Of a stretch of 58,023 nt of DNA, positions 27,001-52,729 are shown in pieces (the stretch's first letter is position 1; every line of letters starts with the position of its first letter). Where the stretch lies: the IMG/VR virus record IMGVR_UViG_3300030103_005593, positions 1 to 58,023 of that record; one strand, written 5' to 3'. The notes under the pieces are model-generated. The model had not been told where the DNA came from. It saw only the letters and a program-made list of their open reading frames with translations, and did no database searches. The translations under genes and the position numbers were made by a program. The stretch comes from a virus.

Positions 27001-27324
27001 AACTTTGGTTCTGAGAAAACCAGTACTGGAGGAGGTAGTGGAACTGCTTTAGAATATACTACATCATCAATAACTTTTGAAACAGTTGCATCCTATGTGA
27101 AAGTTGATTTTCCAGAACAATCATTTAGACCAATAGATAATTTTGTTATTCGCAGATATTTGCAAGATGCTGGTGGAATGATTGTAGATCAAAGTTTTCC
27201 ATATTCATCAAACCCAGAAAAAATTACATCAGCTGGATTTCTAAAACCTCCATTTACAACCCCAGATTTAGAAACATCACCAGATGTTATATTACAAGAC
27301 TTAATTGATAAAAAACTTATTTAA
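18073..27324 (+). CDS. Giant tail/baseplate protein (3083 aa)
   Basis: One uninterrupted frame of 3083 residues. The first 650 residues resemble large baseplate-associated proteins seen in marine T4-like phages: DQGEYFISYEFYKPRLGS, then YELFVDMVGQHYDNVWLYTK and YKRIYHNIPYLLKTKGTIAG then LRALITSYGIPDTIL. A LamG-like or galactose-binding-like beta domain may follow (about 660-830). The rest is Ser/Thr/Asn/Gly-rich beta sequence with many tyrosines, without obvious short repeats, probably a chain of carbohydrate-binding or Ig-like domains. It lies where T4 carries gp7-gp12 and may replace several peripheral wedge and short-fibre proteins. Precise domain limits cannot be set by eye. Confidence 0.75.
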   Translation: MEEKIIIQPVSPDTFEFQDYSNSDQDLLVTNQLDTVFSGSTDYIEAYIYDANKSQITSAIPFTNYKVVEGNVVISPSNDLERLGFDQGEYFISYEFYKPRLGSTLNTRYYISEISSDRTEIRLDTTQIDNALVISSSLEFIQYRDEANYFVDFYLNFGDNQQIIANNLEIDTTDENNPTLLIKLYDPLPSEFDLKAQCSVVEEISTPQSYNVVFPPLNFSADDFNYISGPNYNLSVTNQSGTPGLDYSYNTLLSSDITSSTTQIKSLLNKKEIEISVNYEDYNDFIYFSSAFTRLQNFYYKVGLIQSASAQLGTLTSATTGSVVYSASQASLTNIIDTTIENFDGYEYFLYFNSGSDQSYPKSNTEPPFILYPTGSTEVLNWLGSTVIGNAYYGGQALSASNYDENNQNSLYYAIPEYLRSDPQNVKYELFVDMVGQHYDNVWLYTKNITTRFDADNRLDYGIAKDMVADAIRDFGVKLYSNNFNTDDLYTSFLGLTPSGSSFPFPNMTGSIGGVVNTPSGFEYVDSTISASNDIIPLDDVNKRLYKRIYHNIPYLLKTKGTIAGLRALITSYGIPDTILRINEFGGKDRNNSQDWDLKQDFYNLGLNTTSSGFTSSFSLNTDWGANENSPSSIQFRFKTNGIPSSSNTPTTQSIFESNLNVGSGGPLSRIAMGLDYDESLLTTGTYSGSVESKFKEYGTLKFWPNINTNPENSASLYLPFWDGNWWSVQVDRDINVGNDGGFTLRAANNIGENLGFTGSDTIEGNVTLWENSTEIYWLPQNFSTFAGINYFALSGSLQEVRYYTDVISESVFYDYTMNPYSFEGNQINSAPDQLAFRLSLGSLLNTGSFNNSIHPKVTGSFITTSSFSTNSSASFNATPTWLNNTEDIYSDQTPSGIRNRVTDKIQIENLILPEGDTLSGFRSIQQTSYVSESFTPDVNYLEVAYSPQNQINDDIIGQLGYFNIGDYIGDPRLISSSDKSYPDLDLLRDAYFEKYITNYDVTDFIRLIKFFDNSLFKMIEDFTPARTSLSSGVVIKQHLLERNRQRPAQVTSSLEQYSGSVSNLPKDYSTGSSDFPQYDFSGSSIYVFKAGTGGSFEPFNGLQTYPSGTLGDGPDNRYFLTQSWSESISTFDGIAPLPRVDQREFYNGEFSGSNIPVELEDICSAYFKVGNTVYTYVPVFWSADGNNNTQTITEQAFLDPTNQPPAKYAWFWNDGSNVLYIKMSLESYNGVIISSFIQTVEWIIFAFTNPIDANGAILQGTQTYYLEDVALQPETAASNPESVGSALCYTIPGESSTAVSSADASFYDFNFSASGDYQWHATQDTSADPNPVLDTGISASVPQGYFPLTSTYPTESFFSGWASSNFYTNGTYNAFSGILSDPLNNFNTGSHEVDNTDTTLVSGIDPQSNHPWFMNASPEGENQSWIKIPSESFLDYANIPDSSVGPVATNNYFNIAWTSASSVEPQAVQGVNYYYNASNNAIYMSGSEFQNELKFLNPLYSSSLVHKISGTDQLGTSGTSYTPPGQSNLSIPIDPSRGQELWVYRGESSANVADSNTYRYNRYIHRPFKIYYLTETGSGIPGIPYNLYDPMTYEGIDSSTAGLQSIDAVVPPYYDNQNVSFATMLGTQGDISFNAPTYARPLNDTATLPSLGAVSGSFEIFNEARQVRPFIFTTYRNNPSTSGPNPARGSGSFVAISQSDGTPFALLRMYQNQTPNLPSATTTPFLVTCNNTQGAPFCAVIYYGLNDEVTTQLLNAGQSAVICGDSSRTSNSNSPNYVLTPSSIGTIAVSTNLNGNADPCINLDPSGGGGIGGNQNSSVGKNQIPYFYTFNASGPSVGNQALQEYQIPYGEFFNGENTSSLSLTTGTQPGGGDDDTEIVFPEGGYIFTMSAFDDTTFTNGRTEFGLWTTYGDYVRYDFDNQAGSNANPVTIDYIDNQYQNTSVDVYNVALEEFDKSSNVGSANNSNTGTGNTDSISYPKIFVNEEGGSASSGLGYIRFNVVAGGELNINVSKNKNAFVTVKIFVGDDQTATGSTPSGMTQIAELPSSFTVSTTGPTNFTSTVTNTQQVMVLVSTNQDVDNWGQINALFINLPSPSVIANMGSPEAQPSFTDPFVITGSISEKYANGVEVPGSFATKVTEAYILYTSSLSSSLAGAYVFDVTPTFGILHVTASVVVSSFTDTQAALYGNAIYGSSEYGGGNSGGGTTWTTASLILYTGSANNFPNEMPQIGGDIFAITSSHSTTHNTGERITLMTTISPGELAYNDVIKMALRVGSGSDASSVVQNSLIVTEYSMSFSSSIDASVDPSIPTIFSDDQNFNYAYDCQPLLNNYSAARINNRLQNVDYTTGLVIPTNWQQVIDFSASRASVPESNYSKTNIINGRYDGSNITSQKYNIWTPGDAGGFGKLPSIDVNKTHLAYFNTVYDGYPLLNNKTLYNVQYLIDQEGQATQPKLSDITFFDVQGTFEPLPEWNGDEFEYVNNAIISLAGDAKEQLFPLQGEFPFYKTQARPEPVLYSQKSGIFPVNKNATEPQGIELVGNQPIDANIVPNFNNYTFEAFGETEIFTSTRNINSTTQILESKTPVQDGDGLPVGGQNNITASAANTGTSLPIYQNDKNVDEAGFTTIPILDGGSGFAVDNTQGLGNNTSQAYDLDFEFFVDSDPTDTRLRTRDHEGGWKGHSPIDSPLIGEFELRFQRRNFNASTDAEVGWGSQAIKGVKVEIIEYFSSTNAAGTNFLVIDYNSVGASYISTQQSNGLVQVNFHTDTIRDAYQNAGYASPIKQRLKISGKHSTTSTGFGGGNRPIRQGDQFRVRYNGNIITNTSGNGPVFFPQGIQSFTGGRILMQGQNSNPVTAATASFWDFSGSGTSQAGNVLHCVSPQLNKAYARDFVQKDLIYTASFNKDFPGGREPFYTTMPPVTLPWELQINDEIRFDNNEDNAYKIINIIPPSENNDPNLTSSDNLTPSLVIELDGSVPINFGSEKTSTGGGSGTALEYTTSSITFETVASYVKVDFPEQSFRPIDNFVIRRYLQDAGGMIVDQSFPYSSNPEKITSAGFLKPPFTTPDLETSPDVILQDLIDKKLI

Positions 27325-31297: not shown

Positions 31298-34200
31298 ATG
31301 GCTAAACAGTTAGAAAATATTTTTAATCCAAATGTTGATGAAATATCACAAGGGTTTACAATTAATTCTTGGCATGTTTCTCAATCAGTAGATGCATTTA
31401 CAGCTCAGGATGCTTATGATATTTCAATATCAGGTTCTCTTAATAATACAGGTTCAGCAAGTTTTTCAGGTAGTGTATTTACCCCAGATTTAACTGATAC
31501 ATCAGCCGATTTTGAAGTAGTTGTTGTTGATAATACTACAAAAGAATTAAAAAAAACAACATCATTAGCAGCAGGTTCTTCTGGTTCATCAGGTTCATCT
31601 GGTACAAGTGGCACAAGTGGTACTTCGGGTACAAGTGGTTCTTCAGGAACAAGTGGAACCTCAGGTTCATCAGGTAATAGTGGATCATCTGGTTCATCAG
31701 GTGCAGACGGAGATAGATATGCTACAACTTCAGGTACATCAGAAACACTAGGGGATGGAAATAAATGTATAAATATTGAATTAGGTTTAGCTTATACTGC
31801 AGGTCAAGAAATGATAATGGCTAACAGTGATACTGCTTTTCAAACAGCTTTAGTTGTTAGTTATAACCCTGTAACTGGAATTTTATGTTATGGCGATATT
31901 ATAACTCAGGAAGGAACTGGAACCTATAGTAGTTGGCAAGTTAACCTTTCAGGAAATGTAGCAGGATCTTCAGGTACTTCTGGAACTTCGGGTACTAGTG
32001 GTACCTCAGGAACTTCTGGTGGTATAGGAGAAGCTGGTTCATCAGGTTCATCGGGTTCATCTGGTACAAGTGGTACTTCGGGTTCAAGTGGGACAAGTGG
32101 TTCATCAGGTACTTCAGATAAGTACGCAACAACTTCAGGCACCACTTATCAATTAGGAGCTTCAACTCCTTGTCTTACAGTTGAAACCGGATTAGCGTAT
32201 ACAACTGCTCAATCCATAATTATAGTACATGATATTGATAATTTCCAAGAATGTGAAGTTAGCTCTTATAATTCAGCAACTGGTGAATTATGTTTTACAA
32301 ATATAACAAGACAAGTAGGATCAGGAACTTATTCAACTTGGACAGTCAATCTAGACGGTGCTTCGGGTGGAGATGGATCTTCGGGTTCTAGTGGTACATC
32401 AGGAACAAGCGGTTCTTCAGGTACATCGGGTACAAGCGGTTCTTCGGGAACAAGTGGAACTAGTGGATCTTCAGGAGCTAGTGGTTCTTCTGGTTCATCT
32501 GGTACAAGCGGAACTTCGGGTACAAGTGGTACTTCTGGTTCAAGTGGTGAAGATGGATCATCTGGTTCTTCAGGCACAAGCGGAACTTCAGGAACAAGTG
32601 GAACCTCAGGTTCTTCAGGTACATCTGGCACATCAGGTTCTTCAGGTACATCAGGTTCTTCAGGCACATCTGGTACTAGTGGTACTTCTGGTTCAAGTGG
32701 AACATCAGGAACTTCAGGAACAAGTGGTTCTTCAGGTACATCTGGTACATCAGGATCATCTGGTACTAGTGGTACAAGTGGATCATCTGGAACAAGCGGA
32801 ACTTCAGGTTCAAGCGGAACTTCTGGTACATCGGGTACATCAGGTACATCAGGTTCAAGTGGTGAAGATGGATCATCGGGTTCAAGTGGTACTTCAGGCA
32901 CAAGTGGTTCAAGTGGTACTTCAGGTTCAAGTGGTACTAGTGGCTCATCAGGTACAAGCGGAACTTCTGGTTCATCAGGTACTAGTGGTACAAGTGGAAC
33001 TTCAGGAACAAGTGGCTCATCAGGAACAAGTGGAACATCTGGTTCAAGTGGTACAAGTGGAACTTCAGGCACAAGCGGAACTTCAGGTACTAGTGGTACT
33101 AGTGGCTCATCAGGATCAAGTGGTACAAGTGGCTCATCAGGATCTTCAGGTACATCAGGAACTTCTGGTTCAAGTGGAACATCAGGAACAAGCGGTTCTT
33201 CAGGAACAAGCGGTTCTTCTGGAACATCTGGTACTTCAGGTACTTCTGGAACATCTGGTTCAAGTGGTACAAGTGGCTCATCAGGATCTTCAGGTACTTC
33301 TGGTTCAAGTGGTACAAGTGGAACGTCAGGTTCAAGTGGATCAAGTGGAACATCGGGTACAAGTGGCTCATCTGGTACAAGTGGAACATCAGGAACAAGC
33401 GGAACATCAGGCACTTCAGGAACAAGTGGTAATGATGGTTCATCTGGATCTTCAGGTACCTCAGGAACTAGTGGTACTAGTGGAACATCAGGATCAAGTG
33501 GTTCAAGTGGAACTTCAGGTTCATCTGGAACTTCTGGATCAAGTGGCTCTTCAGGTACAAGCGGAACTTCTGGTTCATCAGGTACTTCAGGTACCTCAGG
33601 TACATCTGGTACTAGCGGTACTAGTGGTTCTAGTGGTACATCAGGTTTATCAGATAGATATGCAACAACCTCAGGAACTTCTTTTGCACTAAATAATTCA
33701 ATTAATACTACAATAACTGTAGAAACGGGCCTTGCTTATACTCCTGCACAATCTATTATCATAGTACATGACGTAGATAATTTCCAAGAGTGTGAAGTTG
33801 TAACCTACGACAGTGGTACAGGAGCATTGACTTTTGCTCCACCAACTAGGGTTGTAGGGAGTGGAACTTATTCAACTTGGACAGTTAATCTAGATGGTGC
33901 TTCAGGTGGAGATGGATCTTCAGGTTCATCAGGTACAAGCGGAACTGCTGGTTCATCAGGTACAAGTGGTTCATCTGGTACTTCGGGGACAAGTGGAACA
34001 TCAGGAACTTCAGGAACAAGTGGTTCTTCAGGAACTTCAGGAACAAGTGGTTCTTCAGGAACAAGCGGAACTTCTGGTTCATCAGGTACTAGTGGAACAT
34101 CAGGTTCATCAGGTACTTCAGGAACATCAGGCACTTCAGGTACATCAGGAACACAAGGTGAAGATGGTTCATCAGGATCTTCAGGAACATCAGGAACATC

Positions 34201-37200
34201 TGGTACTTCAGGCACAAGTGGTTCATCAGGAACAAGCGGAACTTCAGGTTCAAGCGGTACATCGGGTACAAGTGGTTCATCTGGTACTTCTGGTACAAGT
34301 GGAACATCAGGCACTTCAGGAACAAGTGGTAATGATGGTTCATCTGGTTCTTCTGGTACTTCAGGTACATCAGGTACTTCTGGATCAAGTGGAACATCAG
34401 GAACATCAGGTTCAAGTGGAACGAGTGGTTCATCCGGAACAAGTGGTACTAGTGGAACTAGTGGCTCCTCTGGAACAAGTGGAACAAGCGGTTCATCAGG
34501 TACATCAGGTACAAGTGGTGAAGATGGATCTTCGGGATCATCAGGAACTTCAGGTTCAAGTGGTACAAGCGGTTCTTCTGGCACATCAGGAACTTCAGGT
34601 ACAAGTGGTTCATCTGGTACTAGTGGTTCAAGTGGTACTTCTGGTACATCAGGTACTAGTGGTACGAGTGGAACTTCTGGTTCATCAGGTACTAGTGGTA
34701 CAAGTGGAAGTTCTGGTACATCAGGTTCTTCTGGTACATCTGGTTCAAGTGGAACTTCGGGAACAAGCGGAACTTCGGGTACAAGTGGAACTTCAGGTTC
34801 AAGTGGTGAAGCAGGTTCTTCAGGTTCTTCAGGTACAAGTGGAACATCTGGTACCAGTGGCTCTTCAGGCACAAGTGGTTCATCAGGAACAAGTGGAACT
34901 AGTGGCACATCAGGTACTTCAGGAACTTCAGGTACAAGTGGTTCAAGTGGAACATCGGGAACTTCAGGTACAAGTGGCTCAAGTGGAACAAGTGGTTCTT
35001 CAGGAACAAGTGGTACTTCAGGCACTTCAGGAACAAGTGGTACTTCAGGAACTTCAGGAACAAGTGGCTCATCAGGAACAAGTGGCTCATCAGGATCAAG
35101 TGGAACAAGCGGTTCATCTGGTTCTTCAGGTACAAGTGGTACATCAGGAACTTCAGGGTCATCTGGTTCTTCAGGAACTTCAGGTACATCAGGTACTTCA
35201 GGTACAAGTGGCTCCTCTGGTTCTAGTGGCTCTTCAGGTACAAGTGGTACATCAGGTTCAAGTGGTACATCTGGTACTTCGGGCTCCTCTGGTTCTTCAG
35301 GCACTTCAGGTTCATCGGGTACATCAGACAAATATGCTACCACTTCAGGTACATCTTTTGCATTAAATAATTCAATTGATGCCACGATAACAGTTGAAAC
35401 AGGTTTAGCTTATACTCCTGCACAATCTATTATTATTGTACACGATGTAGATAATTTCCAAGAATGTGAAGTTGTAACTTATGATGATTCAACAGGTGCA
35501 TTAACTTTTTCACCTCCAACAAGAGTTGTGGGTAGTGGAACTTATTCAACTTGGACAGTTAACTTAGATGGTGCCTCAGGTGGGGATGGTTCTTCAGGTT
35601 CAAGTGGAACTTCAGGAACAAGTGGTTCATCAGGATCAAGTGGTACAAGTGGATCATCTGGTACTTCTGGTTCAAGTGGTACAAGCGGTTCTTCTGGTAC
35701 AAGCGGAACATCTGGTACAAGTGGAACAAGTGGAACATCAGGTTCAAGTGGAACTTCAGGCTCTTCAGGAACTTCGGGTACAAGTGGAACATCAGGAACT
35801 TCGGGTACAAGTGGAAGTTCTGGAACATCAGGTTCTTCTGGTGTATCAGGAACTGCTGGTTCATCAGGTACAAGTGGTTCATCTGGTACTAGTGGCTCTT
35901 CAGGATCTTCAGGAACAAGTGGTACAAGTGGTACTTCAGGTACTTCAGGTTCAAGTGGTTCTTCAGGAACAAGTGGAACAAGTGGTACTTCTGGTTCATC
36001 TGGTACTTCTGGATCAAGTGGTACAAGTGGTACTTCAGGTACTTCAGGCACCTCGGGTACATCAGGTTCAAGTGGTACTTCTGGATCAAGTGGTACAAGT
36101 GGTACAAGTGGGACTTCAGGTACAAGTGGTGAAGCAGGTTCTTCAGGTTCTTCAGGTACAAGTGGTTCATCTGGTACAAGTGGTTCTTCAGGAACAAGTG
36201 GAACAAGTGGCTCATCAGGATCAAGTGGAACAAGTGGTTCATCTGGTACATCAGGTTCTTCAGGCACAAGTGGTACTTCGGGTACTAGTGGAACAAGTGG
36301 ATCATCTGGTACTTCTGGTTCAAGTGGTACAAGCGGTTCTTCTGGTTCCTCGGGATCAAGTGGATCATCTGGTACTAGTGGGGCAGCAACGATTTTAGAT
36401 GAAGGAAATAATAGAGTTACTACTTCAACAGGAAACCCTGGTGAATTACAAGCTGAAGAATATTTCTTATTTAATTCTGATAGAAGAGGAGTTTGTATAG
36501 GTTCATCTCAAGGAATGACAGGTAACCTTAACTCAAGTATTTTAGGGGGTGATGGTAACTGTATAACAATTTGTTCAAACGCGTCAACAATAGCAGGTGG
36601 TAAAGCAAACTGTATAAGTAATTCAAGTTGTTATTCTTTTATTGGAGGGGGACGTAATAATGAAGTTTGTGAAGACGATGCAAGTGTGGTTGGCGGTAGA
36701 GCAAATACCGCTTCAGCAGATTCAAGTTTTATTGGAGGTGGATGTAAGAATAGTATAAGTGCAAATAGTAATTGTTCTTTAATTGGTGGTGGTTTTTGTA
36801 ATACTATAAAAGATCATTCTAGTGGTTTTCAATGTAGTAGTGCAATAGTTGGAGGATTTGATAATGTTGTTTGTAGTCTTGGTAGTACCATAGCTGGTGG
36901 GGAAAAAAATGAAATAAAAAATCATAGAAATTTTATTGGTGCTGGAGCCTGTAATATTATTTCTGGTAGCTCAGCATTTATTGGAAGTGGTTTTTGCAAT
37001 CAACAAGAAGGTGCTTATGGAGTAATAGCAGGAGGTGCTGAAAATTGTATCGATACAACAGCGGGAACTATTGCAGGTGGATGTAAAAATATAATTGATG
37101 ATGCATCCCATGGAGCCACCTATAGCTTTATAGGAGGTGGTCGTAGTAATTTTATTAGTGGATCTTCAAGGAGTGGTATTTTAGGAGGTTGTCAGAACCT

Positions 37201-40200
37201 TATTCAATCTCCACAAGTTATTGGTGGATTAAACACTGCAGTTAATGATACATTTATTATTGGTAGTGATATTACAGCATCTTGTGGATGTTCAACTTAT
37301 GTAAATCAACTTAACATTGGTACAGTTAATACAGGTACAGAAGACGATGTATTAATTATTGATTCTGATGGTTTTGTTAAAAAGAAAACAGCTGCAGCAA
37401 GCTCAGGCTCTTCAGGTTCAAGTGGTACTTCTGGTTCATCTGGTACTTCTGGATCAAGTGGTACAAGTGGATCATCAGGTTCTTCAGGTACTTCTGGATC
37501 AAGTGGTACAAGTGGGACTTCAGGAACTTCAGGTTCTTCAGGAACTAGTGGAACATCTGGTTCTTCAGGTACATCGGGCTCAAGTGGTTCTTCAGGAACT
37601 TCAGGTTCTTCAGGTACATCAGGTTCAAGTGGAACATCAGGTACAAGTGGAACATCAGGTACATCTGGTTCATCTGGTACTAGTGGCTCTTCAGGTTCAT
37701 CAGGTTCTTCAGGAACTAGTGGCTCTTCAGGTTCAAGTGGTACAAGTGGATCAAGTGGTACTTCAGATAAATATGCTACTACTTCAGGTACATCTTTTGC
37801 ATTAAACAATTCAACTAACGCTACAATAACAGTTGAAACTGGTCTTGCATATACACCCGCTCAATCTATTATTATAGTACATGACGTAGATAATTTTCAA
37901 GAGTGTGAAGTTGTAACTTATGATGATTCAACAGGAGCATTGACTTTTGCCCCACCAACTAGGGTTGTAGGTAGTGGAACTTATTCTACTTGGACAGTTA
38001 ACTTAGACGGTGCCTCAGGTGGAGATGGAAGTTCAGGATCAAGTGGTTCTTCAGGTACATCTGGTTCTTCAGGTTCTTCAGGTACATCTGGTTCATCTGG
38101 TACTAGTGGTTCTTCGGGTTCATCTGGTACTTCAGGTAGTTCAGGTACAAGTGGAACAAGTGGTTCATCCGGTACTTCTGGATCATCAGGTACAAGTGGT
38201 TCATCAGGTACTTCAGGTACTTCAGGTTCAAGTGGAACAAGTGGAACATCAGGTTCTAGTGGTACTTCAGGAACTTCTGGTTCAAGTGGTACTAGTGGTT
38301 CAAGTGGTTCTTCAGGTTCATCCGGTACTTCTGGATCAAGTGGTACATCGGGTACAAGTGGTTCATCAGGAACATCAGGAACTTCTGGTTCTAGTGGAAC
38401 AAGTGGTTCATCAGGTACTTCAGGTTCAAGTGGAACAAGTGGATCATCAGGTTCATCAGGAACAAGTGGTTCATCTGGTTCAAGTGGTTCAAGTGGTACA
38501 AGTGGTGCAGCAACAATTTTAGATGAAGGAGATGATAGAGTTACTACTTCAACAGGAAATGCTGGTGAATTACAAGCAGAGGAATATTTCTTATTTAATT
38601 CAGGTAAAAGAGGAGTTTGTATTGGTACTTCTCAATCAATGACTGGTAATTTAAATTCTAGTATTTTAGGTGGTCAAGGTAATTGTATAACAGTTTGTTC
38701 AAACGCGTCAACAATTGGAGGAGGTACTGGAAACTGTGTAACTAATTCTTCTTGCTATTCATTTGTAGGAGCTGGTGTTGGTAATGAAGCTACCTGTGAT
38801 AAAGTATTTATAGGAGGAGGTTGTTGTAATACAGGTTCTGGAGAATTTTCTGCTATTGCTGGAGGTTGCTTTAATGTTGCTTCAAATATAGGAACATTTA
38901 TTGGTGGAGGAAAACAAAATGAAACTAAAAGATGTTTTTCTGCAATTGCCGGTGGAACAATAAACTGTACTAATTCTTCTTATGGGCATGATTTTATTGG
39001 TGGAGGTAGAAATAATACAATTAACACCTCTCTTTCGGGTTATAGTAGTATAGCTGGTGGCTCTTCAAACTCTATTTCTAATACCTACTCAGGTTATAGT
39101 TTTATTGGAGGTGGTGCGAGTAATAAAACTTGTGCTTGTTACGCTTCTATAATTGGTGGTGGAAATAATATTATTTTGAAAAATCATTCTGTAATTGGAG
39201 GAGGTTTTAAAAACACTGGATCATCAGCATGTAGTTTTATAGGAGGTGGTTGTAATAATGAAATATCTTCTAGTTTTAATGCTTGTGGTATAGAAGAGTT
39301 TTCATTTATAGGTGGTGGTAGAGACAATTGCATAACCTCACGTACATTTTGTATGGGTACTTGTTGTGTAGGCTACAATGTAATAGTAGGTGGACGATGT
39401 AATCAACTAAAATGTGTTAAGTCAGATGGATCAGTTGAAATTGGATGCTCTGTAATTGTAGGAGGATTTATAAATACAGGTTCAAAAGCTAATACTTTTA
39501 TAGGGGCTGGAAAATGTAATTATACTGCTGGTCAAAACTCTAGTGTTGTTGGAGGGTTAAGTAATAAAGCTTCTGGATTTAACGGTGTTGTTGCAGGTGG
39601 TTGTTGTAATGTAGCTGGTTCACATTCATTTATAGGAGCAGGAAAGAGTAATACTGCTACTTGTATTGATGGTGGTATAGTAGCAGGACAGAGTAATACT
39701 GCTGGTGGTTGCCAATCTTTTATAGGAGCAGGTACTTCTAATATTATAGGTGGTGGTTCAAAAAATAGTATAGTTGGAGGTGGTGGAAATATAATTTGTA
39801 ATGGAGCTAGCCTACCATCTTATCCTTCTTGCGGTGTGTTTATTGGAGGGGGATGTTTAAATCAAATAAATAACTGTAGTGCAGTTGCACAGTTTGTAAC
39901 TGTAGTTGGTGGGTGTCGAAATTTTGCACATGGATGTGCCTCAGTTATTGTAGGTGGTAATTGTAACTGTGTACTTACAAATCGTTCATTTGTTGGAGGA
40001 GGATGTTGTAATACTATATCTTCTCATATAACTGCTGTTATCGCTGGAGGTTGTTGTAATAGTATTGCTGGTTCAGGAGGTAGTGGATTTATAGGAGGTG
40101 GAGCTTCCAATGCTATTTGTTCTAGTACAAATTCCGGTCATATAATAGTAGGAGGTTCAGAAAATAAATCATGCAATACAAGTACTGGTGGAGGTCATAC

Positions 40201-41395
40201 TATCGTAGTAGGAGGATGTTGTAATTGTGCTCTTGGAAGTTATTCAATAGTAGTAGGTGGTAAATGTAATAAAGCTTGTGGAAATTGTAGTTTTATAGGA
40301 GGTGGTGTTAATCATTGTGCTATAGGATGTTGTTCTGCAATAGTAAGTGGATGTTGTAATAGGGTTTGTGAGATAGAAGGGTTTATAGGATCTGGTAACT
40401 GTAATGAAATTACTGCTGCGGGTTGTGCTCGGTCAAGTTTTATTGGTAGTGGTTTTAATAATAAAGTTTATGGTAACTGTGGTTTTATAGGAGGAGGAAG
40501 TGGTAATGGAATTGCATTCCAACAAAGTATAGGAACAATTGGTGGTGGAAGTAGTAATTTGGTTAATGCAATCGGTGGATTTGTTGGAGGTGGATGTGAC
40601 AATCATGTTGAAAGAAACATAATGAGTGCTACTGGATGTTATGGAGCTATAGTAGGTGGTTGTAGTAATAATGTACAAGGTAATTGTGGTTTTATTGGAG
40701 GAGGTTTTAACAATGATGTAACATGTAATGGAAACTTTGGAGCAGTTTTAGGTGGTTGTTGTAATTGTGTAAACCATTCTAACTCACATATTATTGGATC
40801 AGATTTAACTTCTTGTACTTCTTGTACTACTCATGTTAACTGTCTTAACATTAAATCAACTTGCGGAGGAAGTAACGGTGCTAAACAAGTTAGTATAATA
40901 CCTGGAATTTCATCAAATGGTAGTGTTGTTACAGACATGCAAGAAATTGTAATAGCTTATAATAATACCCAAATATCAGGAATCCAGGGATCAAATGGAG
41001 CTTGTGTAATTTTAGCAGCTCCTGGGGCAAATAAAACAATAGTACTTTATGAAGCTGCATTCCAAATCACAACTTCAGGTACAAACACAACACAAGGATT
41101 CCAAAGAAGTTTAAATGTAATTACTCCTGCATTTAATTGTAATAATACAAACATAAATCCTAATGCTACAGCAGCATTAGTACCTGCAAATGTATTGCAA
41201 AATGCAATGAGAAATGGTCAATGTCGTACAACTTACCAAAGGGATACACCTACAGATGGTAGAATATATTCTACAAATCAATGTGTTTACTTTGGATGGA
41301 GTGGTGCAAATGCTTACCCATCTGGTTTACCATCACAATGGACTTGTTTAAAAGCTAGAATTAGATATAAAATTTATTGTGACACAGCATTCTAA
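31298..41395 (+). CDS. Giant tail fibre with Gly-X-Ser triplets, globular modules and Cys-rich beta-roll (3365 aa)
   Basis: One continuous frame. Order by residue: 1-92 attachment domain shared with the preceding fibre (NSWHVSQSVDAFTAQDAYDI); Gly-Thr-Ser/Gly-Ser-Ser triplet blocks from 93 on, broken by five copies of an ~85-residue module starting (D)(K/R)YATTSGT at residues 139, 274, 786, 1344 and 2157; beta-roll A at 1696-2033; more triplets and the fifth module; beta-roll B at 2404 to about 3188, with about 68 cysteines; tip domain 3189-3365 (SIIPGISSNGSVVTDMQEIV, ending KARIRYKIYCDTAF). Glycine at every third place is collagen-like, but proline is absent. A trimeric long fibre is expected, with the tip as likely receptor contact. 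Confidence 0.8.
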   Translation: MAKQLENIFNPNVDEISQGFTINSWHVSQSVDAFTAQDAYDISISGSLNNTGSASFSGSVFTPDLTDTSADFEVVVVDNTTKELKKTTSLAAGSSGSSGSSGTSGTSGTSGTSGSSGTSGTSGSSGNSGSSGSSGADGDRYATTSGTSETLGDGNKCINIELGLAYTAGQEMIMANSDTAFQTALVVSYNPVTGILCYGDIITQEGTGTYSSWQVNLSGNVAGSSGTSGTSGTSGTSGTSGGIGEAGSSGSSGSSGTSGTSGSSGTSGSSGTSDKYATTSGTTYQLGASTPCLTVETGLAYTTAQSIIIVHDIDNFQECEVSSYNSATGELCFTNITRQVGSGTYSTWTVNLDGASGGDGSSGSSGTSGTSGSSGTSGTSGSSGTSGTSGSSGASGSSGSSGTSGTSGTSGTSGSSGEDGSSGSSGTSGTSGTSGTSGSSGTSGTSGSSGTSGSSGTSGTSGTSGSSGTSGTSGTSGSSGTSGTSGSSGTSGTSGSSGTSGTSGSSGTSGTSGTSGTSGSSGEDGSSGSSGTSGTSGSSGTSGSSGTSGSSGTSGTSGSSGTSGTSGTSGTSGSSGTSGTSGSSGTSGTSGTSGTSGTSGTSGSSGSSGTSGSSGSSGTSGTSGSSGTSGTSGSSGTSGSSGTSGTSGTSGTSGSSGTSGSSGSSGTSGSSGTSGTSGSSGSSGTSGTSGSSGTSGTSGTSGTSGTSGTSGNDGSSGSSGTSGTSGTSGTSGSSGSSGTSGSSGTSGSSGSSGTSGTSGSSGTSGTSGTSGTSGTSGSSGTSGLSDRYATTSGTSFALNNSINTTITVETGLAYTPAQSIIIVHDVDNFQECEVVTYDSGTGALTFAPPTRVVGSGTYSTWTVNLDGASGGDGSSGSSGTSGTAGSSGTSGSSGTSGTSGTSGTSGTSGSSGTSGTSGSSGTSGTSGSSGTSGTSGSSGTSGTSGTSGTSGTQGEDGSSGSSGTSGTSGTSGTSGSSGTSGTSGSSGTSGTSGSSGTSGTSGTSGTSGTSGNDGSSGSSGTSGTSGTSGSSGTSGTSGSSGTSGSSGTSGTSGTSGSSGTSGTSGSSGTSGTSGEDGSSGSSGTSGSSGTSGSSGTSGTSGTSGSSGTSGSSGTSGTSGTSGTSGTSGSSGTSGTSGSSGTSGSSGTSGSSGTSGTSGTSGTSGTSGSSGEAGSSGSSGTSGTSGTSGSSGTSGSSGTSGTSGTSGTSGTSGTSGSSGTSGTSGTSGSSGTSGSSGTSGTSGTSGTSGTSGTSGTSGSSGTSGSSGSSGTSGSSGSSGTSGTSGTSGSSGSSGTSGTSGTSGTSGSSGSSGSSGTSGTSGSSGTSGTSGSSGSSGTSGSSGTSDKYATTSGTSFALNNSIDATITVETGLAYTPAQSIIIVHDVDNFQECEVVTYDDSTGALTFSPPTRVVGSGTYSTWTVNLDGASGGDGSSGSSGTSGTSGSSGSSGTSGSSGTSGSSGTSGSSGTSGTSGTSGTSGTSGSSGTSGSSGTSGTSGTSGTSGTSGSSGTSGSSGVSGTAGSSGTSGSSGTSGSSGSSGTSGTSGTSGTSGSSGSSGTSGTSGTSGSSGTSGSSGTSGTSGTSGTSGTSGSSGTSGSSGTSGTSGTSGTSGEAGSSGSSGTSGSSGTSGSSGTSGTSGSSGSSGTSGSSGTSGSSGTSGTSGTSGTSGSSGTSGSSGTSGSSGSSGSSGSSGTSGAATILDEGNNRVTTSTGNPGELQAEEYFLFNSDRRGVCIGSSQGMTGNLNSSILGGDGNCITICSNASTIAGGKANCISNSSCYSFIGGGRNNEVCEDDASVVGGRANTASADSSFIGGGCKNSISANSNCSLIGGGFCNTIKDHSSGFQCSSAIVGGFDNVVCSLGSTIAGGEKNEIKNHRNFIGAGACNIISGSSAFIGSGFCNQQEGAYGVIAGGAENCIDTTAGTIAGGCKNIIDDASHGATYSFIGGGRSNFISGSSRSGILGGCQNLIQSPQVIGGLNTAVNDTFIIGSDITASCGCSTYVNQLNIGTVNTGTEDDVLIIDSDGFVKKKTAAASSGSSGSSGTSGSSGTSGSSGTSGSSGSSGTSGSSGTSGTSGTSGSSGTSGTSGSSGTSGSSGSSGTSGSSGTSGSSGTSGTSGTSGTSGSSGTSGSSGSSGSSGTSGSSGSSGTSGSSGTSDKYATTSGTSFALNNSTNATITVETGLAYTPAQSIIIVHDVDNFQECEVVTYDDSTGALTFAPPTRVVGSGTYSTWTVNLDGASGGDGSSGSSGSSGTSGSSGSSGTSGSSGTSGSSGSSGTSGSSGTSGTSGSSGTSGSSGTSGSSGTSGTSGSSGTSGTSGSSGTSGTSGSSGTSGSSGSSGSSGTSGSSGTSGTSGSSGTSGTSGSSGTSGSSGTSGSSGTSGSSGSSGTSGSSGSSGSSGTSGAATILDEGDDRVTTSTGNAGELQAEEYFLFNSGKRGVCIGTSQSMTGNLNSSILGGQGNCITVCSNASTIGGGTGNCVTNSSCYSFVGAGVGNEATCDKVFIGGGCCNTGSGEFSAIAGGCFNVASNIGTFIGGGKQNETKRCFSAIAGGTINCTNSSYGHDFIGGGRNNTINTSLSGYSSIAGGSSNSISNTYSGYSFIGGGASNKTCACYASIIGGGNNIILKNHSVIGGGFKNTGSSACSFIGGGCNNEISSSFNACGIEEFSFIGGGRDNCITSRTFCMGTCCVGYNVIVGGRCNQLKCVKSDGSVEIGCSVIVGGFINTGSKANTFIGAGKCNYTAGQNSSVVGGLSNKASGFNGVVAGGCCNVAGSHSFIGAGKSNTATCIDGGIVAGQSNTAGGCQSFIGAGTSNIIGGGSKNSIVGGGGNIICNGASLPSYPSCGVFIGGGCLNQINNCSAVAQFVTVVGGCRNFAHGCASVIVGGNCNCVLTNRSFVGGGCCNTISSHITAVIAGGCCNSIAGSGGSGFIGGGASNAICSSTNSGHIIVGGSENKSCNTSTGGGHTIVVGGCCNCALGSYSIVVGGKCNKACGNCSFIGGGVNHCAIGCCSAIVSGCCNRVCEIEGFIGSGNCNEITAAGCARSSFIGSGFNNKVYGNCGFIGGGSGNGIAFQQSIGTIGGGSSNLVNAIGGFVGGGCDNHVERNIMSATGCYGAIVGGCSNNVQGNCGFIGGGFNNDVTCNGNFGAVLGGCCNCVNHSNSHIIGSDLTSCTSCTTHVNCLNIKSTCGGSNGAKQVSIIPGISSNGSVVTDMQEIVIAYNNTQISGIQGSNGACVILAAPGANKTIVLYEAAFQITTSGTNTTQGFQRSLNVITPAFNCNNTNINPNATAALVPANVLQNAMRNGQCRTTYQRDTPTDGRIYSTNQCVYFGWSGANAYPSGLPSQWTCLKARIRYKIYCDTAF
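31712..38027 (+). repeat. Five copies of an ~85-residue globular fibre module
   Basis: Copies begin at 31712, 32117, 33653, 35327 and 37766. Shared features are YATTSGT, an ETGLAYT-type strand (ELGLAYT in copy 1), IIIVHDxDNFQECEV in copies 2-5, GSGTYSTWTVNLDGASGGDG at the end of copies 2-5, and GTGTYSSWQVNLSG in copy 1. Copies 3, 4 and 5 are nearly identical in protein but differ at many third codon positions; copy 1 is most divergent. Confidence 0.85.
36383..37396 (+). repeat. Beta-roll repeat region A of the giant fibre
   Basis: Starts with AATILDEGNNRVTTSTGNPG, which also introduces region B. About sixteen repeats of the (S/F)-I-x-GG-x-x-N type follow (SSILGGDGNC, STIAGGKANC, SFIGGGRNNE). 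It ends with a domain YVNQLNIGTVNTGTEDDVLI before the triplets resume. It matches the short fibre at 30107 in repeat type and end sequence (TTYVNNLNVG). Confidence 0.75.
38507..40860 (+). repeat. Cysteine-rich beta-roll repeat region B
   Basis: Begins AATILDEGDDRVTTSTGNAG and runs for about 785 residues of repeats of the type FIGGGCCNxx and IVGGCxNxx. Cys occupies the two places after GG(G) in many repeats, and another Cys often sits at the start of the following turn (CGNCSFIGGG, YGNCGFIGGG). About 68 Cys were counted by hand. Asn follows the Cys pair almost always. Confidence 0.8.
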
Positions 41396-44003: not shown

Positions 44004-45113
44004 ATGGGAAATAAGTTATCAATAATAGGCCGTGGAACGGTTGGGTGTTTAACTGCTTTAAAATTTAGTAATAAAGGCTTTGATATCGATTGGTATCAAG
44101 ACCCCCACATACAACCCCTATCAGTTGGGGAAGGTGCGGATTTATCATTACCTTATTTTCTAACTAATGAATTAAAATTTAGTTATGAAGATTTAATTGA
44201 TATTGGGGGATATTATAAACATGGTATTGAAAAAATAAATTGGACTAAAAAACCATTTACACATTGGTTTGAATTAGGAAGAACTTCTATCCATATTAAT
44301 TCAGTTAATTTACAAAATTTTATAATAAATAAAATATCTTCTAAAGTAAATATTATTGAAAAAAACATTCAAAGTAACAAATTAAAATCTTATGTAATTG
44401 ATTGCTCTGGTGCACCACCACCAACAGAAGAAAGATATGAAACCCCAATCCCAGTTAATAATGCTTATGTAACTCAATGTCCTTGGAAGCAACCTAAATT
44501 TAATAAAACATTATGTATAGCACAAAAATATGGATGGGTATTTTTAATTCCGTTACAAAATAGATGTTCAGTAGGTTACTTATATAATAGTGATTATTCT
44601 GATTTAGACTTAATAAAATCATCAGTAAAATCTATTTTTAAAAAATATAATCTAAAACCCCAAGAAAGTAAAAATTTATCTTTTAATAATTTTTATAGAA
44701 AAACAAATTTTAAAAATAACATATGTTATAATGGTAATTCTTCATTTTTCTTAGAACCTATAGAAGCAACATCACTAAATACTTCAATAACAGTAATAAA
44801 ACAAATTGATAAACTTTTTAGCGGTGATATGGATTTAAATGAAACTAATGATAAATACAAAAAGTTTTTGGAAGAAACAATTGATATTATTATGTTACAT
44901 TATTTAGTAGACCCACCTTATAAAACGGAATTTTGGGAAATGGCACATACTAAAGCAAAAGATTGGCTTACTAATCGTGTTAAAAATTATCCAAGGATAA
45001 GAATAATAAATCAAGAAGGTGTATATGATTATTCTACATGGTATGAAGATAGCTTTAAACAAAACCTAACGGGTTTAAATTTATATGGTAAACTAAAAGA
45101 ACTAGGATGGTAA
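44004..45113 (+). CDS. Flavin-dependent halogenase-like protein
   Basis: A 369-residue protein of the tryptophan halogenase-like flavoprotein family. The dinucleotide motif is IIGRGTVGCLTALKF (GxGxxG, residues 9-14). SVGEGADLSLP (40-50) matches the family's 'VGE.t.P'. K72 in YKHGIEKINW sits where the catalytic Lys of PrnA/RebH lies. The WxWxIP signature appears as W178-V-F180-L-I-P183, with the second Trp replaced by Phe. FFLEPIEATSLNTSI (248-262) is the conserved FAD/halide-site block. Bacterial Trp halogenases are over 500 residues, so this is a short form. Halogenase-like genes are known from marine cyanophages. Substrate unknown; a flavin monooxygenase without halogenation is the alternative. 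Confidence 0.75.
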   Translation: MGNKLSIIGRGTVGCLTALKFSNKGFDIDWYQDPHIQPLSVGEGADLSLPYFLTNELKFSYEDLIDIGGYYKHGIEKINWTKKPFTHWFELGRTSIHINSVNLQNFIINKISSKVNIIEKNIQSNKLKSYVIDCSGAPPPTEERYETPIPVNNAYVTQCPWKQPKFNKTLCIAQKYGWVFLIPLQNRCSVGYLYNSDYSDLDLIKSSVKSIFKKYNLKPQESKNLSFNNFYRKTNFKNNICYNGNSSFFLEPIEATSLNTSITVIKQIDKLFSGDMDLNETNDKYKKFLEETIDIIMLHYLVDPPYKTEFWEMAHTKAKDWLTNRVKNYPRIRIINQEGVYDYSTWYEDSFKQNLTGLNLYGKLKELGW

Positions 45114-47612: not shown

Positions 47613-48146
47613 ATGATCAAATTAGTAGATATTCTTAATGAAATAGTTCCACCTAAGAATACTTGGTTTCCTTTATCAAAAGTGGAAGTAAAAGATGTTG
47701 AAAAAGAAATTTTAGATTTAATTAATAATGCTTATAGTTCAATTGGGGGCCATCCTAATTATAAATCAGTTAATGATTTAGCAGGCTCGGAGTATGAAAT
47801 TATTGATTTAGATGATGATCCTGAATTAGATGCTGTAACAGTAACAAAACAAAGAGCGGGTGGTACTAAACATGTGGGCATAGGACATGATGGAACTAGC
47901 CCAGGTAAAAGAGGAGCAATAGGTCGTACTATAGATAAATTAAATGAACCCTCAAATTATATTGAAGCATCAGGTGCTATAGAAAATATTTTACGTAAAG
48001 CCAATGTAACACAAGTTACGGATGAAGAAACAATTCGTAAAGCACTTAAAGGTAAAGAAATAAAAATGTATGATGATGGTTCATATGATCGAGTTTTAGG
48101 AGGAAAAAAATATAGAAAAACAATGTGGGGAAAACCAACAGTATGA
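47613..48146 (+). CDS. Hypothetical protein with capsid-targeting-like N-terminus (177 aa)
   Basis: The N-terminus MIKLVDILNEIVPPK has Leu at position 8 and Glu at position 10, as the T4 internal-protein targeting peptide has Ile8 and Glu10 before its cleavage point. The rest is acidic in the first half (NDLAGSEYEIIDLDDDPELD) and Gly/Lys-rich in the second (GHDGTSPGKRGAIGRTIDKL). The C-terminus is basic (LGGKKYRKTMWGKPTV). It overlaps the following gene by four bases. No family recognised; packaging into the head is an inference from the N-terminus and from neighbours. Confidence 0.55.
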   Translation: MIKLVDILNEIVPPKNTWFPLSKVEVKDVEKEILDLINNAYSSIGGHPNYKSVNDLAGSEYEIIDLDDDPELDAVTVTKQRAGGTKHVGIGHDGTSPGKRGAIGRTIDKLNEPSNYIEASGAIENILRKANVTQVTDEETIRKALKGKEIKMYDDGSYDRVLGGKKYRKTMWGKPTV

Positions 48147-48943
48147 TAAGTTTAATGCAATTATTAAAAGAAGCACAAGGTAATCCAAAAGCAATTATCT
48201 TAGCAGGAGCACCTGGAGCAGGTAAAGGATATATTTTACGTGGTTTAGACTTAGGAGGTCTAAAAGTAATGAATGTAGATGATATATTTGTTGAAAAATT
48301 AAAACAAGCTAATGTTACTTTAGATTTAAAAAATGCAACACCCGAAGAACGAAGTGAACAAGCTAAACAAATGGCAGCTTCAAATAAAGAATTTAAAGGT
48401 AAACTGCAAGATATAATAGATGGTAAACAATCATTTATCCTAGATGGTACCGCAGCTTCAATTAAAACTACCACTAAACTACAATCTGAATTAAAGGCAG
48501 CAGGATATGATGTATTTATGCTTTATGTTTATACTGATTTAGAACGTTCATTAATGCAAAACCAAGATAGATTTGAAAAATCAGGTGGTAAAGATAGAAG
48601 TTTAGCACCTGCTATTGTAATGAGAACATGGGCATCTGTAACAGATAACTTTGGGGCATATCAAGCAATGTTTAAACCTAATTTTGTTTCAGTTGCTAAT
48701 ACTTTAGAAGATGAAAAATTAACAGACGTAGAAGATATAATAAAAAAATATTTAGATCCTTTTAAACCTACAGGAACTAAACCAAAGGATGCAAAGGCAC
48801 AAGCAAGATCAGATAAATCCAAAGCCGCATTAAATGCTAAATTAAAAGATTTATTATCTGATTCTGAAGCTGAAATAATAATAAAAAACTCAGTATCAAA
48901 AGAAGAGGCACAATCTAAAATTAAACAATTTTTAAGTTCATGA
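48143..48943 (+). CDS. P-loop kinase-like (zeta-toxin-like) protein
   Basis: The ATG at 48143 (ATGA overlap with the previous stop) is preferred to an upstream in-frame GTG. The protein has 266 residues. MISLMQLLKE|AQ resembles a cleavable capsid-targeting peptide (L8-x-E10). Walker A is GAPGAGKG (22-29), followed by LKVMNVDDIFVEKL and an ILDGTAASIKTTTKLQSELK block, in the order of zeta-toxin/AAA-type small-molecule or protein kinases. The C-terminal 60 residues are Lys/Ala/Ser-rich and probably extended. Substrate unknown. If packaged, it could be injected to phosphorylate host targets. Confidence 0.65.
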   Translation: MISLMQLLKEAQGNPKAIILAGAPGAGKGYILRGLDLGGLKVMNVDDIFVEKLKQANVTLDLKNATPEERSEQAKQMAASNKEFKGKLQDIIDGKQSFILDGTAASIKTTTKLQSELKAAGYDVFMLYVYTDLERSLMQNQDRFEKSGGKDRSLAPAIVMRTWASVTDNFGAYQAMFKPNFVSVANTLEDEKLTDVEDIIKKYLDPFKPTGTKPKDAKAQARSDKSKAALNAKLKDLLSDSEAEIIIKNSVSKEEAQSKIKQFLSS

Positions 48944-50859
48944 GTTTAGTTAAAGAACTAATTAAAGATTTACTACCTGAACAAAAATATAAAAAAACGG
49001 TAGCTGTATATGGAGGTGGTTTTAAACCACCCACCAAAGGTCACTTTGAAGTTGTAAAACAAGCAATTAAGGAAAATCCTGATATTGATGAATTTATAAT
49101 TAATATAGGGGGTAAAGCAAGAGATGGTGTTACTCCTGAAGAAGCAATTCAAATTTGGGATATCTACAAACAATACCTCCCAGTTTCTGCTAATATTAAT
49201 ATTCAATATAGTAGCACTCCTCCCATTAAGGCAACTTATGATTATGCTAAAAATCATCCTGATGAAGAAGTATTATTTATTTTAGGTGCTAGAGAAGGAA
49301 ATGATGATGATTTTAAAGATATATCTTCTAGAACTAAATCTTTAGATAAATACCCTAATTTAAATTTACGTACTATAGTAACCCAAGGCGGAGTATCAGG
49401 AACAGCAGCTAGGAATGCTGGTAAAATAAGTTCTGAAAAATTAAGACGCTTTTTACCTGATGAATTAAGTAATGAAGAAGTAGAACAAGTATACCAAATG
49501 ATTTCAGACAAATTAACTGAAGGTAGAAAAAAGAAGAAAGACCCTAAAAAAGGCACAGGTAAAAAACCAAAAAAATCTGGGCGTAGACTATACACAGATG
49601 AAGACCCAAAAGACACAGTTGGTATTAAATTTAGTACTAGACAAGATATAGTAGATACATTAAGTAAAAAATCATTTAAAGCTAAATCACATGCTAGACA
49701 ATCCCAAATTATTAATTTAATTCATCAAAGAGTAAGGGCAGCATTAGGTAGAACTAAAGATCCAAAGAAAAAAGCTAAATTGCAATCTGGATTTAAATAT
49801 ATTAAAAAACGTAAGGAAGCATCTAAAGCTAAAACACAACGTTTAAAAAAACAAAAACTAAAAGAGCAAATAGATTCTAGTAAGTTTAATTACCAACCTT
49901 ATATCATGTCGCTTACGCAACATATGATAGATAATGGCTTAAAATTAGAACCATTACCTAAAATTCAAATGATACATGATGATTATGAAAATGGAGAAGA
50001 TTTATTTGGTAAAACAGCATATTATGCACCTGCAACCAACTTAGTAGTACTTTATACTTACGGTAGGCACCCTAAAGATATTTTACGATCTTATGCCCAT
50101 GAATTAATTCATGTACATCAGAATATGGAAGATAGATTAAGTAATATTAATACTACTAATGTAAATGATGATGATTATTTAGAGCAATTAGAAAGGGAAG
50201 CATATGAAACTGGTAATATAATGTTTAGAAGTTGGACTGATTCACTTACTGGTAATAAACTAGAAGAATCAGTAAAAAAATTAATCACTGAAAAAAAGAA
50301 AAAAGATCCATTTGGGTTAAATGCTTATGCTATGGAACTAGCTAAGGGTTTAGAAGAACAAACAAGTGAATATAAAGTATACCTTGATATGGATGGGGTA
50401 CTAGCTGATTTTGACCAACGTTTTAAAGATATATCAGGTATGGAACCTAAGGAATTTGAAGCTAAATATGGTACTAAAGAATTTTGGAATCTTATAGATG
50501 AAGAAAATAAAATCAGTTTTTGGGTAGGTATCCCTGAAATGCCAGGGGCTAAAGCATTAGTTGATGCTGTTAAAAAATATAATTATGAATTATTAACTTC
50601 ACCATCAGCTAAAAAACAATCTTATTTAGGTAAAATACTTTGGGTAAGAAATCATAGCAACTTGTTTGGTGGAAAACCTCGTATTAATTTTAAGCGAGCT
50701 AAAGAAAAGCATGAAGTTAAACCTGAATTAACTAAAACTGATATTCTAATTGATGATAGAGAAGACACAATTGGGAGATGGAACGCAGCAGGTGGTACAG
50801 GTATAGTATATAAAAATGTAGGTCAAGTATTAAATGATCTTAAAAAATTAGGTTTATGA
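48940..50859 (+). CDS. Three-domain fusion: nucleotidyltransferase, zincin-like protease, HAD phosphatase
   Basis: A 639-residue protein. Residues 18-190 form a cytidylyltransferase-like domain with VYGGGFKPPTKGH (T32-K-G-H35 as HxGH variant) and GVSGTAAR (ISSTxxR-type). Residues 195-310 are a Lys-rich linker or basic domain. Residues 315-440 hold a metalloprotease-like H387-E-L-I-H391 with a later E in LEREAYETG. Residues 478-639 are a 5'-nucleotidase-like HAD domain with D483-M-D485-G-V-L-A-D, LLTSPS and DILIDDRED. The sequence L/I-x-E occurs at 12-14, 192-194, 307-309, 449-451 and 471-473, that is, at the N-terminus and each domain border. Both ends overlap neighbouring genes by four bases. 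Confidence 0.75.
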   Translation: MSLVKELIKDLLPEQKYKKTVAVYGGGFKPPTKGHFEVVKQAIKENPDIDEFIINIGGKARDGVTPEEAIQIWDIYKQYLPVSANINIQYSSTPPIKATYDYAKNHPDEEVLFILGAREGNDDDFKDISSRTKSLDKYPNLNLRTIVTQGGVSGTAARNAGKISSEKLRRFLPDELSNEEVEQVYQMISDKLTEGRKKKKDPKKGTGKKPKKSGRRLYTDEDPKDTVGIKFSTRQDIVDTLSKKSFKAKSHARQSQIINLIHQRVRAALGRTKDPKKKAKLQSGFKYIKKRKEASKAKTQRLKKQKLKEQIDSSKFNYQPYIMSLTQHMIDNGLKLEPLPKIQMIHDDYENGEDLFGKTAYYAPATNLVVLYTYGRHPKDILRSYAHELIHVHQNMEDRLSNINTTNVNDDDYLEQLEREAYETGNIMFRSWTDSLTGNKLEESVKKLITEKKKKDPFGLNAYAMELAKGLEEQTSEYKVYLDMDGVLADFDQRFKDISGMEPKEFEAKYGTKEFWNLIDEENKISFWVGIPEMPGAKALVDAVKKYNYELLTSPSAKKQSYLGKILWVRNHSNLFGGKPRINFKRAKEKHEVKPELTKTDILIDDREDTIGRWNAAGGTGIVYKNVGQVLNDLKKLGL

Positions 50860-51463: not shown

Positions 51464-52729
51464 ATGAAAGATAATTTTGACCTTTATTCTTGGAATAAAA
51501 ATCGTTATTTAGGAAAAGCTAAAATGGCTAAAGAAACTGAAAAAAAAGATTTTAATTTACGAGAATGGAATAAAAAACGCTATTTAGGCGAATTAGATAT
51601 CAACACAACAGGGGGTGATACTAATGTTGATAATCTAAATATAGATAAAGGTGGAGATGATCCCAAGATGGGAGCAGAATTAGAATCTGATGCTAATGTA
51701 GTAGGTGAAAACCAATCACATTTAGAATTTTTATCTAAGTATTTAGAAAAAATGCATCCTGGTTTAAGATTTGATGTTAGAAAAGAACCTTTTGATAGAA
51801 TTGATGTAATGGGTTCTCAACAAGATTTAGCTAATTTTGGTAGAGAAATGCATGGTAAAAAATTTGGCGAATATGAAGTATTTGCTGTTGATGATGATGA
51901 TAGAGGAGAAATTGTTCGTATAGTTAAATCTTCAAGTATTGCAAGAGGCAAATTAGAAGAGGGTGTAGTTAAAGACATGCATACCTTTTTAAATGACTTA
52001 AGAGACTCAGGCGTAACTAATATGTTTGGTGCTGCTCCTTATCTACAAAAAGAATTTGGCATAGACCAAAAATCGGCAAGAGAAGTATTAGCTAATTGGA
52101 TGCAATCATTTAGTGAAAATCTAGAATATAAAGGTAGAAAATTTAGTAGTGAAGAAGAAGATAGATTAGATTTAATTGCACATAAAGAATTTAATGGTAA
52201 AGATTTTAGTAAATTATCTGATGAGGATAAAGCTAAAGTATTTGCAAAAAGAGATCAAGTTGGTGTTAGAGAAATGATTGATTACGATGAAGCTTTAACA
52301 TTAAGGGGTATGAAAGCTGAATTAGAAGATCAAATTGCTCAATTATTCAGAGACATGGAGCAAGAAGCTGAACCAGAAGGTGGACCAATTGCAGATAGAT
52401 ATGGTGATGAATTAAATAAATTAGAAGACCGTTTATATAAAATCAATAAACAACTTCGTGATTATGATATGAATGAAAGTAAAAAATCAATTAAGGAAAC
52501 ACTACGTTTTATTAAAGAAAACAATCCAGAATTTACTAATGAAGAAATTAAAGCTGAATTAAAAGAAATTAAAGAATTAGGCAGTCAATTAAACGAAAAA
52601 CTTTGCAAAAAAGGAGAAGCATATCGTAAACGTAGAATGGCTGCTGGTGAAAAATCATCTGCTTATTTATCTGGTCGTGCTGTTAAAGTATGTAAAGGTC
52701 AAATGAGTGGTAAGAAAAAGAAAAAATAA
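51464..52729 (+). CDS. Probable head-associated protein with duplicated WNKxRYLG motif (421 aa)
   Basis: The N-terminus carries a tandem motif: [14 protein letters not shown] (residues 5-18) and [14 protein letters not shown] (about 29-42). A mixed alpha/beta region follows ([20 protein letters not shown]-like; [20 protein letters not shown]). The C-terminal 90 residues are helical and Lys/Glu-rich with a basic end ([14 protein letters not shown]) and two Cys. The start 'M-x-D-N-F-D' recurs in the protein at 54314. Late promoter upstream. Composition suggests a scaffold, core or internal head protein. No family recognised. Confidence 0.55.

Follow-up and report, generated by a model that had tools for sequence, protein, structure and literature searches.

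Organization of the locus

The window, i.e. the whole stretch of DNA analysed here, is a virus record of about 58.5 kb from a marine phage, and all ORF coordinates refer to it. On its plus strand the ORF at 48940..50859 encodes a protein of 639 aa, a candidate virion-cargo polyprotein. The chain begins with an N-terminal leader, MSLVKELIKDLLPE (aa 1-14, 48940..48981), which is a proposed capsid-targeting sequence and ends in the putative cut site LPE. It is followed by a nucleotidyltransferase of the NadD/PPAT fold (aa 15-194, 48982..49521) that carries the motifs GGGFKPPTKGH and GVSGTAAR and ends in LTE. A basic module beginning with GRKKKKDPKKGTGKKP comes next (aa 195-309, 49522..49866; end LKE) and then a zincin metallopeptidase module (aa 310-451, 49867..50292; end ITE), in which the active-site motif HELIH occupies aa 387-391 (50098..50112). 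A helical spacer, KKKKDPFGLNAYAMELAKGLEE (aa 452-473, 50293..50358; end LEE), which is also found before other modules, leads to the C-terminal HAD 5'(3')-deoxyribonucleotidase module (aa 474-639, 50359..50856). The first-pass annotation had described a fusion of three enzymes. Adenylyltransferase, zincin and HAD nucleotidase are indeed present, but the protein consists of four modules plus a leader, the stretch 195-309 being a module of its own.

The two genes directly upstream lie on the same strand. The product of 47613..48146 starts with the leader-like sequence MIKLVDILNE, and that of 48143..48943, a zeta-toxin-like P-loop kinase (PF06414, E 1.5e-18), with MISLMQLLKE. The kinase gene overlaps the polyprotein gene, and this adjacency is conserved in contigs G026 and L118. 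Downstream, the ORF at 51464-52729 carries at its C-terminus a further module, KLC (52595..52726, plus strand), directly after an LNE; the same module occurs inside polyproteins of relatives. KLC is basic, roughly 45 aa long and present in more than 50 uncultured phage proteins, fused or stand-alone, nearly always just after [LIV]xE. Among the cultured phages of the collection it had no match, also not in its stand-alone form.

Elsewhere in the window we found a gene of the tryptophan halogenase family (44004-45113; PF04820, E 5e-32) just upstream of a primase gene, as well as two very large ORFs of 3083 and 3365 aa (18073-27324 and 31298-41395), the second of which contains SGS-rich stretches and probably encodes a tail fibre. 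Far from the cluster, the protein encoded at 3963-4952 has a cargo-like leader at its N-terminus, MVNTHLVTWQEFLKE.

Identity of the modules

An AlphaFold model of the 639-aa protein was built from 20 homologues and had a mean pLDDT of 76 and a pTM of 0.35, such that the relative placement of the domains is undefined. Within the model, folded blocks alternate with segments of pLDDT below 50 (3-14, 193-206, 208-233, 305-310 and 438-475). Foldseek matched the folded blocks to bacterial NadD, to phosphopantetheine adenylyltransferases and to HAD hydrolases. Sequence profiles place the adenylyltransferase at the N-terminus (PPAT, E 1.5e-3) and the nucleotidase at the C-terminus (mitochondrial 5'-nucleotidase, PDB 4mum, E 1e-4; phrog_2643 5'-3' deoxyribonucleotidase, E 5e-24). 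The nucleotidyltransferase and HAD phosphatase proposed before are thus of the NadD/PPAT and HAD/NT5C types by both fold and profile. From its sequence the adenylyltransferase would putatively act on NMN, NaMN or phosphopantetheine.

The zincin, also predicted previously from its HELIH motif, is a HEXXH zincin of the IrrE-like type. Modelled alone with AF2 it reached a pLDDT of 91 with IrrE-like neighbours, and all 33 sequences compared keep the H, E and H of the motif. Among solved structures none is close to this module (IrrE/PprI, E 0.05), and its nearest predicted relatives come mostly from uncultured phages. The stretch aa 195-309 is lysine-rich, and gp40 of Pelagibacter phage HTVC033P is a related protein that occurs by itself. 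Pfam gave nothing above cut-off for the basic module or the zincin of the window protein. At least two enzymatic domains of unrelated activity share the chain (adenylyltransferase, zincin and 5'-nucleotidase), and an ART domain is added in relatives.

L/I-x-E motifs at the predicted domain borders

The tripeptide L/I-x-E had been reported at five positions, all of which we confirmed: LPE at 12-14, LTE at 192-194, LKE at 307-309, ITE at 449-451 and LEE at 471-473. The list was selective, however: the protein contains ten such tripeptides, the others starting at 43, 49, 441, 519 and 531. The residues E14, E194, E309, E451 and E473, and in addition E443, all fall within the segments of pLDDT below 50, which make up 15% of the chain. 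Six of the ten possible cut points therefore lie in the unstructured 15% (binomial p = 0.0014), while the other four are inside folded domains. Structure prediction thus puts the five named sites into linkers, with no predicted domain spanning any of them, as expected if they mark domain borders. They fit the L/I-X-E rule, and the linkers are predicted to be exposed.

Among homologues, [LIV]xE is kept at site 12 in 13/14, at site 192 in 18/18, at site 449 in 10/12 and at site 471 in 12/14 sequences. For site 307 the count is 10/16 as aligned, the rest reading KEN or NEN, which is the motif shifted by one column (LKEN, LNEN, INEN). E194 is invariant, and P3 alternates there between L, I and V. 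The remaining sites are less conserved (531 in 2/16, 43 in 9/17, 519 in 11/16 and 441 in 10/14), apart from site 49, which is conserved (16/17) yet located inside the folded adenylyltransferase. The overall density of [LI]xE in the family is about 0.012 per residue.

Modules are exchanged at [LIV]-x-E joints

The relatives of the protein in viral contigs are between 131 and 1,337 aa long. In the polyprotein forms the leader and the adenylyltransferase at the start and the nucleotidase at the end are usually common, while the middle varies: it may hold an ART-like domain (Tox-ART-HYD1; L005, L013, L064), a second zincin, a cupredoxin (L034), a zinc ribbon or small basic modules, and relatives also gave weak matches to Pfam M91 and DUF6782. 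L118 (515 aa) represents a natural deletion that lacks the basic module, its joint reading KITE directly followed by NATYS.

We located the breakpoints of similarity by an all-against-all comparison of 50 family proteins. After de-duplication, 141 of 415 breakpoints had [LIV]xE at the edge where 37 were expected (3.8x), and this held for module starts (59/191, expected 15.6) and for module ends (82/224, expected 21.8). The control classes [LIV]xK, [LIV]xD, [AG]xE and [DE]xE were found at 0.4-1.6x expectation. About two thirds of the raw breakpoints carry no motif, in part owing to imprecise alignment edges. A non-cargo control from tail genes comprised only 78 breakpoints, too few to weigh either way; it gave 9 motif matches where 2.3 were expected, and almost all of them came from a single conserved stretch of tail proteins.

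Counted by distinct upstream contexts, [LIV]xE precedes the module start in 34/34 cases for KLC, 24/24 for the basic module, 9/9 for the first zincin and 21/24 for the 5'-nucleotidase. The motif was absent nearby in the other 3/24 nucleotidase contexts and in 5/18 spacer contexts; contexts of the second zincin that lack it look like chance, unrelated matches of a short pattern. A logo of KLC starts, for which the motif was not required, shows L, I or V at P3 in 87% and Glu at P1 in 94% of the cases with P2, P4 and P5 open, in agreement with the gp21 rule L/I-X-E (PMC9026906). At P3 the codons differ between joints and follow normal usage, which places the constraint on the protein and argues against DNA recombination sites as the origin of the joints.

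Leaders and the head-gene cluster

Capsid-targeting leaders of T4 are 10-19 aa long and direct proteins to the prohead core, and T4 gp21 cleaves after L/I-X-E (PMC9026906). The leader MSLVKELIKDLLPE, which lies in a segment of pLDDT below 50, is kept in 13/14 aligned homologues. Some distant homologues (L017, L103, L105, L046-L049) start straight at the adenylyltransferase, and in Flavobacterium phage immuto, a cultured relative of 160 kb, gp088 has another domain ahead of it, such that leader use is not universal. In immuto the polyprotein is split: gp088 comprises adenylyltransferase and zincin, and directly after it the nucleotidase forms its own gene, gp087, whose product starts with MKKVMGNLADLLLE followed by ESDF. 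Several contigs likewise have separate nucleotidase genes with the N-termini MYKLTDLYKQLKE followed by E.

Such N-termini are concentrated in the head-gene cluster of immuto: 19/33 of its proteins have an L/I-x-E ending at residues 7-24, compared to 6.2 expected from their own interiors. Outside the cluster the count was 30/145 with 32 expected. We found no proteomic data for immuto; PMC7077304, which covers other phages of the same host, holds none of this kind. Contig G026 contains six tandem genes (L115-L117, 61961-64458) that have a common 15-aa leader, MDNFDLKKYLAEGRL, in front of bodies without significant similarity; codon differences within the six leaders are 57 synonymous versus 18 non-synonymous. 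Two adjacent genes of contig G002 (24507 and 24779) carry the same leader type. A different pattern, R-[MW]-[QR]-K-L-A-G-[IL]-I, was seen at scaffold C-termini (L020 37620-38861; G026 76125) and, in immuto gp083, close to the N-terminus (L020 23669-24133; RMQKLAGIITE), and is possibly a core-binding signal common to scaffold and cargo.

A gp21-family protease in a near-identical contig

The search for a gp21-like protease suggested by the first-pass annotation was successful in part. In the window's own contig there is no PF03420 match, the contig stopping short of the head genes. Contig G002, however, equals the window at 99.5% identity over 21.5 kb and continues for 15 kb beyond it. This extension encodes terminase, portal, a gp21-family (S77) protease and the start of the scaffold. 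The protease matches PF03420 (E 1.6e-30) and the phrog_207 head maturation protease (E 9e-59), and carries the motifs GELDHP and GVSSRG. In G002 the polyprotein gene ends about 13 kb before the terminase gene, which is followed by portal, protease and scaffold; the order is the same in G026 and immuto. The protease lies about 20 kb downstream of the polyprotein gene. The same protease family is encoded in 12 of the 20 long contigs that contain the polyprotein family or modules of it. A further nucleotidyltransferase and a P-loop kinase of the AAA_28 type are also encoded in the G002 cluster, which would be compatible with a NadR-like salvage.

Discussion

We consider it quite likely that the 639-aa protein is a head-cargo polyprotein cleaved by a gp21-type prohead protease. 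The motifs with their linker positions and conservation, the exchange of modules at specific joints, the split form in immuto, the leader enrichment in the head cluster and the protease gene of G002 support the polyprotein packaged, cut and injected that was originally suggested, from which we infer the packaging, cleavage and injection steps. The source phage would be a T4-related marine myovirus, with a host that is probably from the Bacteroidota, since Flavobacterium is the host of the sole cultured full-length relative. The leader of 14 residues, which ends in LPE, would act as a T4-like capsid-targeting sequence and carry the precursor into the prohead core, where the S77 protease would cut after [LIV]-x-E. 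The cuts would take the leader off and free adenylyltransferase, basic module, zincin and 5'-nucleotidase, which would remain in the head alongside the DNA and be injected at infection. Within the phage group the polyprotein may serve as a cassette holder that acquires, drops and swaps modules at the protease joints. For the cargo we can only guess roles from the enzyme families: salvage of NAD or coenzymes to withstand NAD-depleting defence, the recycling of nucleotides and attack on host proteins. NAD synthesis by phages is regarded as a countermeasure to NAD-depleting defences (PMC9503650), and an adenylyltransferase packaged in the head would be active immediately upon entry.

The same arrangement could have arisen if cargo genes with L-x-E leaders were fused by loss of stop codons, in which case the internal motifs would be relics and the chain would work uncut. 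Both the nucleotidase and the KLC module are indeed found as separate genes with L-x-E leaders, which makes fusion a natural origin. A relic leader would, however, be retained or lost in its entirety, whereas the internal joints constrain P3 and P1 while P2, P4 and P5 vary, and E194 stays invariant with L, I or V at P3. This pattern points to selection on the cut motif, and we regard uncut relics as unlikely. That the protein is an ordinary multidomain enzyme of the infected cell, with border motifs that are merely helix ends in Leu/Glu-rich linkers, is very unlikely: [LI]xE is common in the family and many domains end in helices, but the other helix-end motifs used as controls are not enriched at the module edges of the family, and the N-terminal enrichment is limited to the head cluster.

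Alternatively, the domains could be freed by the embedded zincin rather than by a gp21-type protease, a mode of release suggested for polyvalent proteins (PMC5512222), in which zincin-like peptidases are the commonest domain and for which autoprocessing has been proposed. The invariant HEXXH of the present family would suit such a role. The same [LIV]xE joints and leaders are found, however, in zincin-free proteins (immuto gp087, KLC proteins and the genes with NFDL leaders), and both joints and leaders match gp21 specificity, which leaves release by the zincin with a slim chance.

Cleavage by the prohead protease would relate the protein to the T4 internal proteins and Alt (PMC9026906, PMC3012670), with which it has in common a short L/I-x-E leader, the use of one leader on unrelated proteins, a gp21-family protease in the head operon and, as we infer here, a place as head cargo. 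Processed cargo of T4 sheds terminal propeptides, and its scaffold and core proteins are cleaved into several fragments, whereas here one chain holds several enzymes with joints at which modules are swapped. In SPN3US and phiKZ many head and ejection proteins are cut after a short Glu-ending motif by gp245 and gp175, respectively, also within multi-site propeptides (PMC10052503, PMC9026906), but these cuts strip propeptides and do not separate enzyme domains. Polyvalent proteins (Iyer et al. 2017, PMC5512222) are likewise large, of the injected-effector type, composed of unrelated enzymes including zincin and ART, and subject to rapid domain shuffling; processing is ascribed there to the embedded zincin or to C-terminal assemblin-like peptidases, and a prohead-protease motif at domain borders is not reported in the passages considered. 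The P1 defence-against-restriction protein DarB is also large, injected and equipped with an N-terminal capsid-targeting signal, but it is a single 250-kDa protein for which the passages of PMC9024508 considered describe no modular array of protease joints. In the literature covered, largely open-access papers, we came across no description of prohead-protease joints that connect swappable enzyme modules.

More generally, it seems fairly probable that the prohead-protease motif is used as a universal joint: varied enzyme cassettes would be placed between [LIV]-x-E sites behind one leader, cut in the prohead and delivered together. If true, T4-related phages would load many different enzymes into the head by one signal, which extends T4 protein delivery from one cargo per leader to several. 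It would also provide a sequence rule for injected effectors, by which head-cluster proteins are split at [LIV]-x-E and each piece is read as a separate cargo enzyme, and which would make a large unannotated set of marine-phage head-cluster proteins readable. T4-related marine phages would then possess a general and evolvable system for loading effectors.
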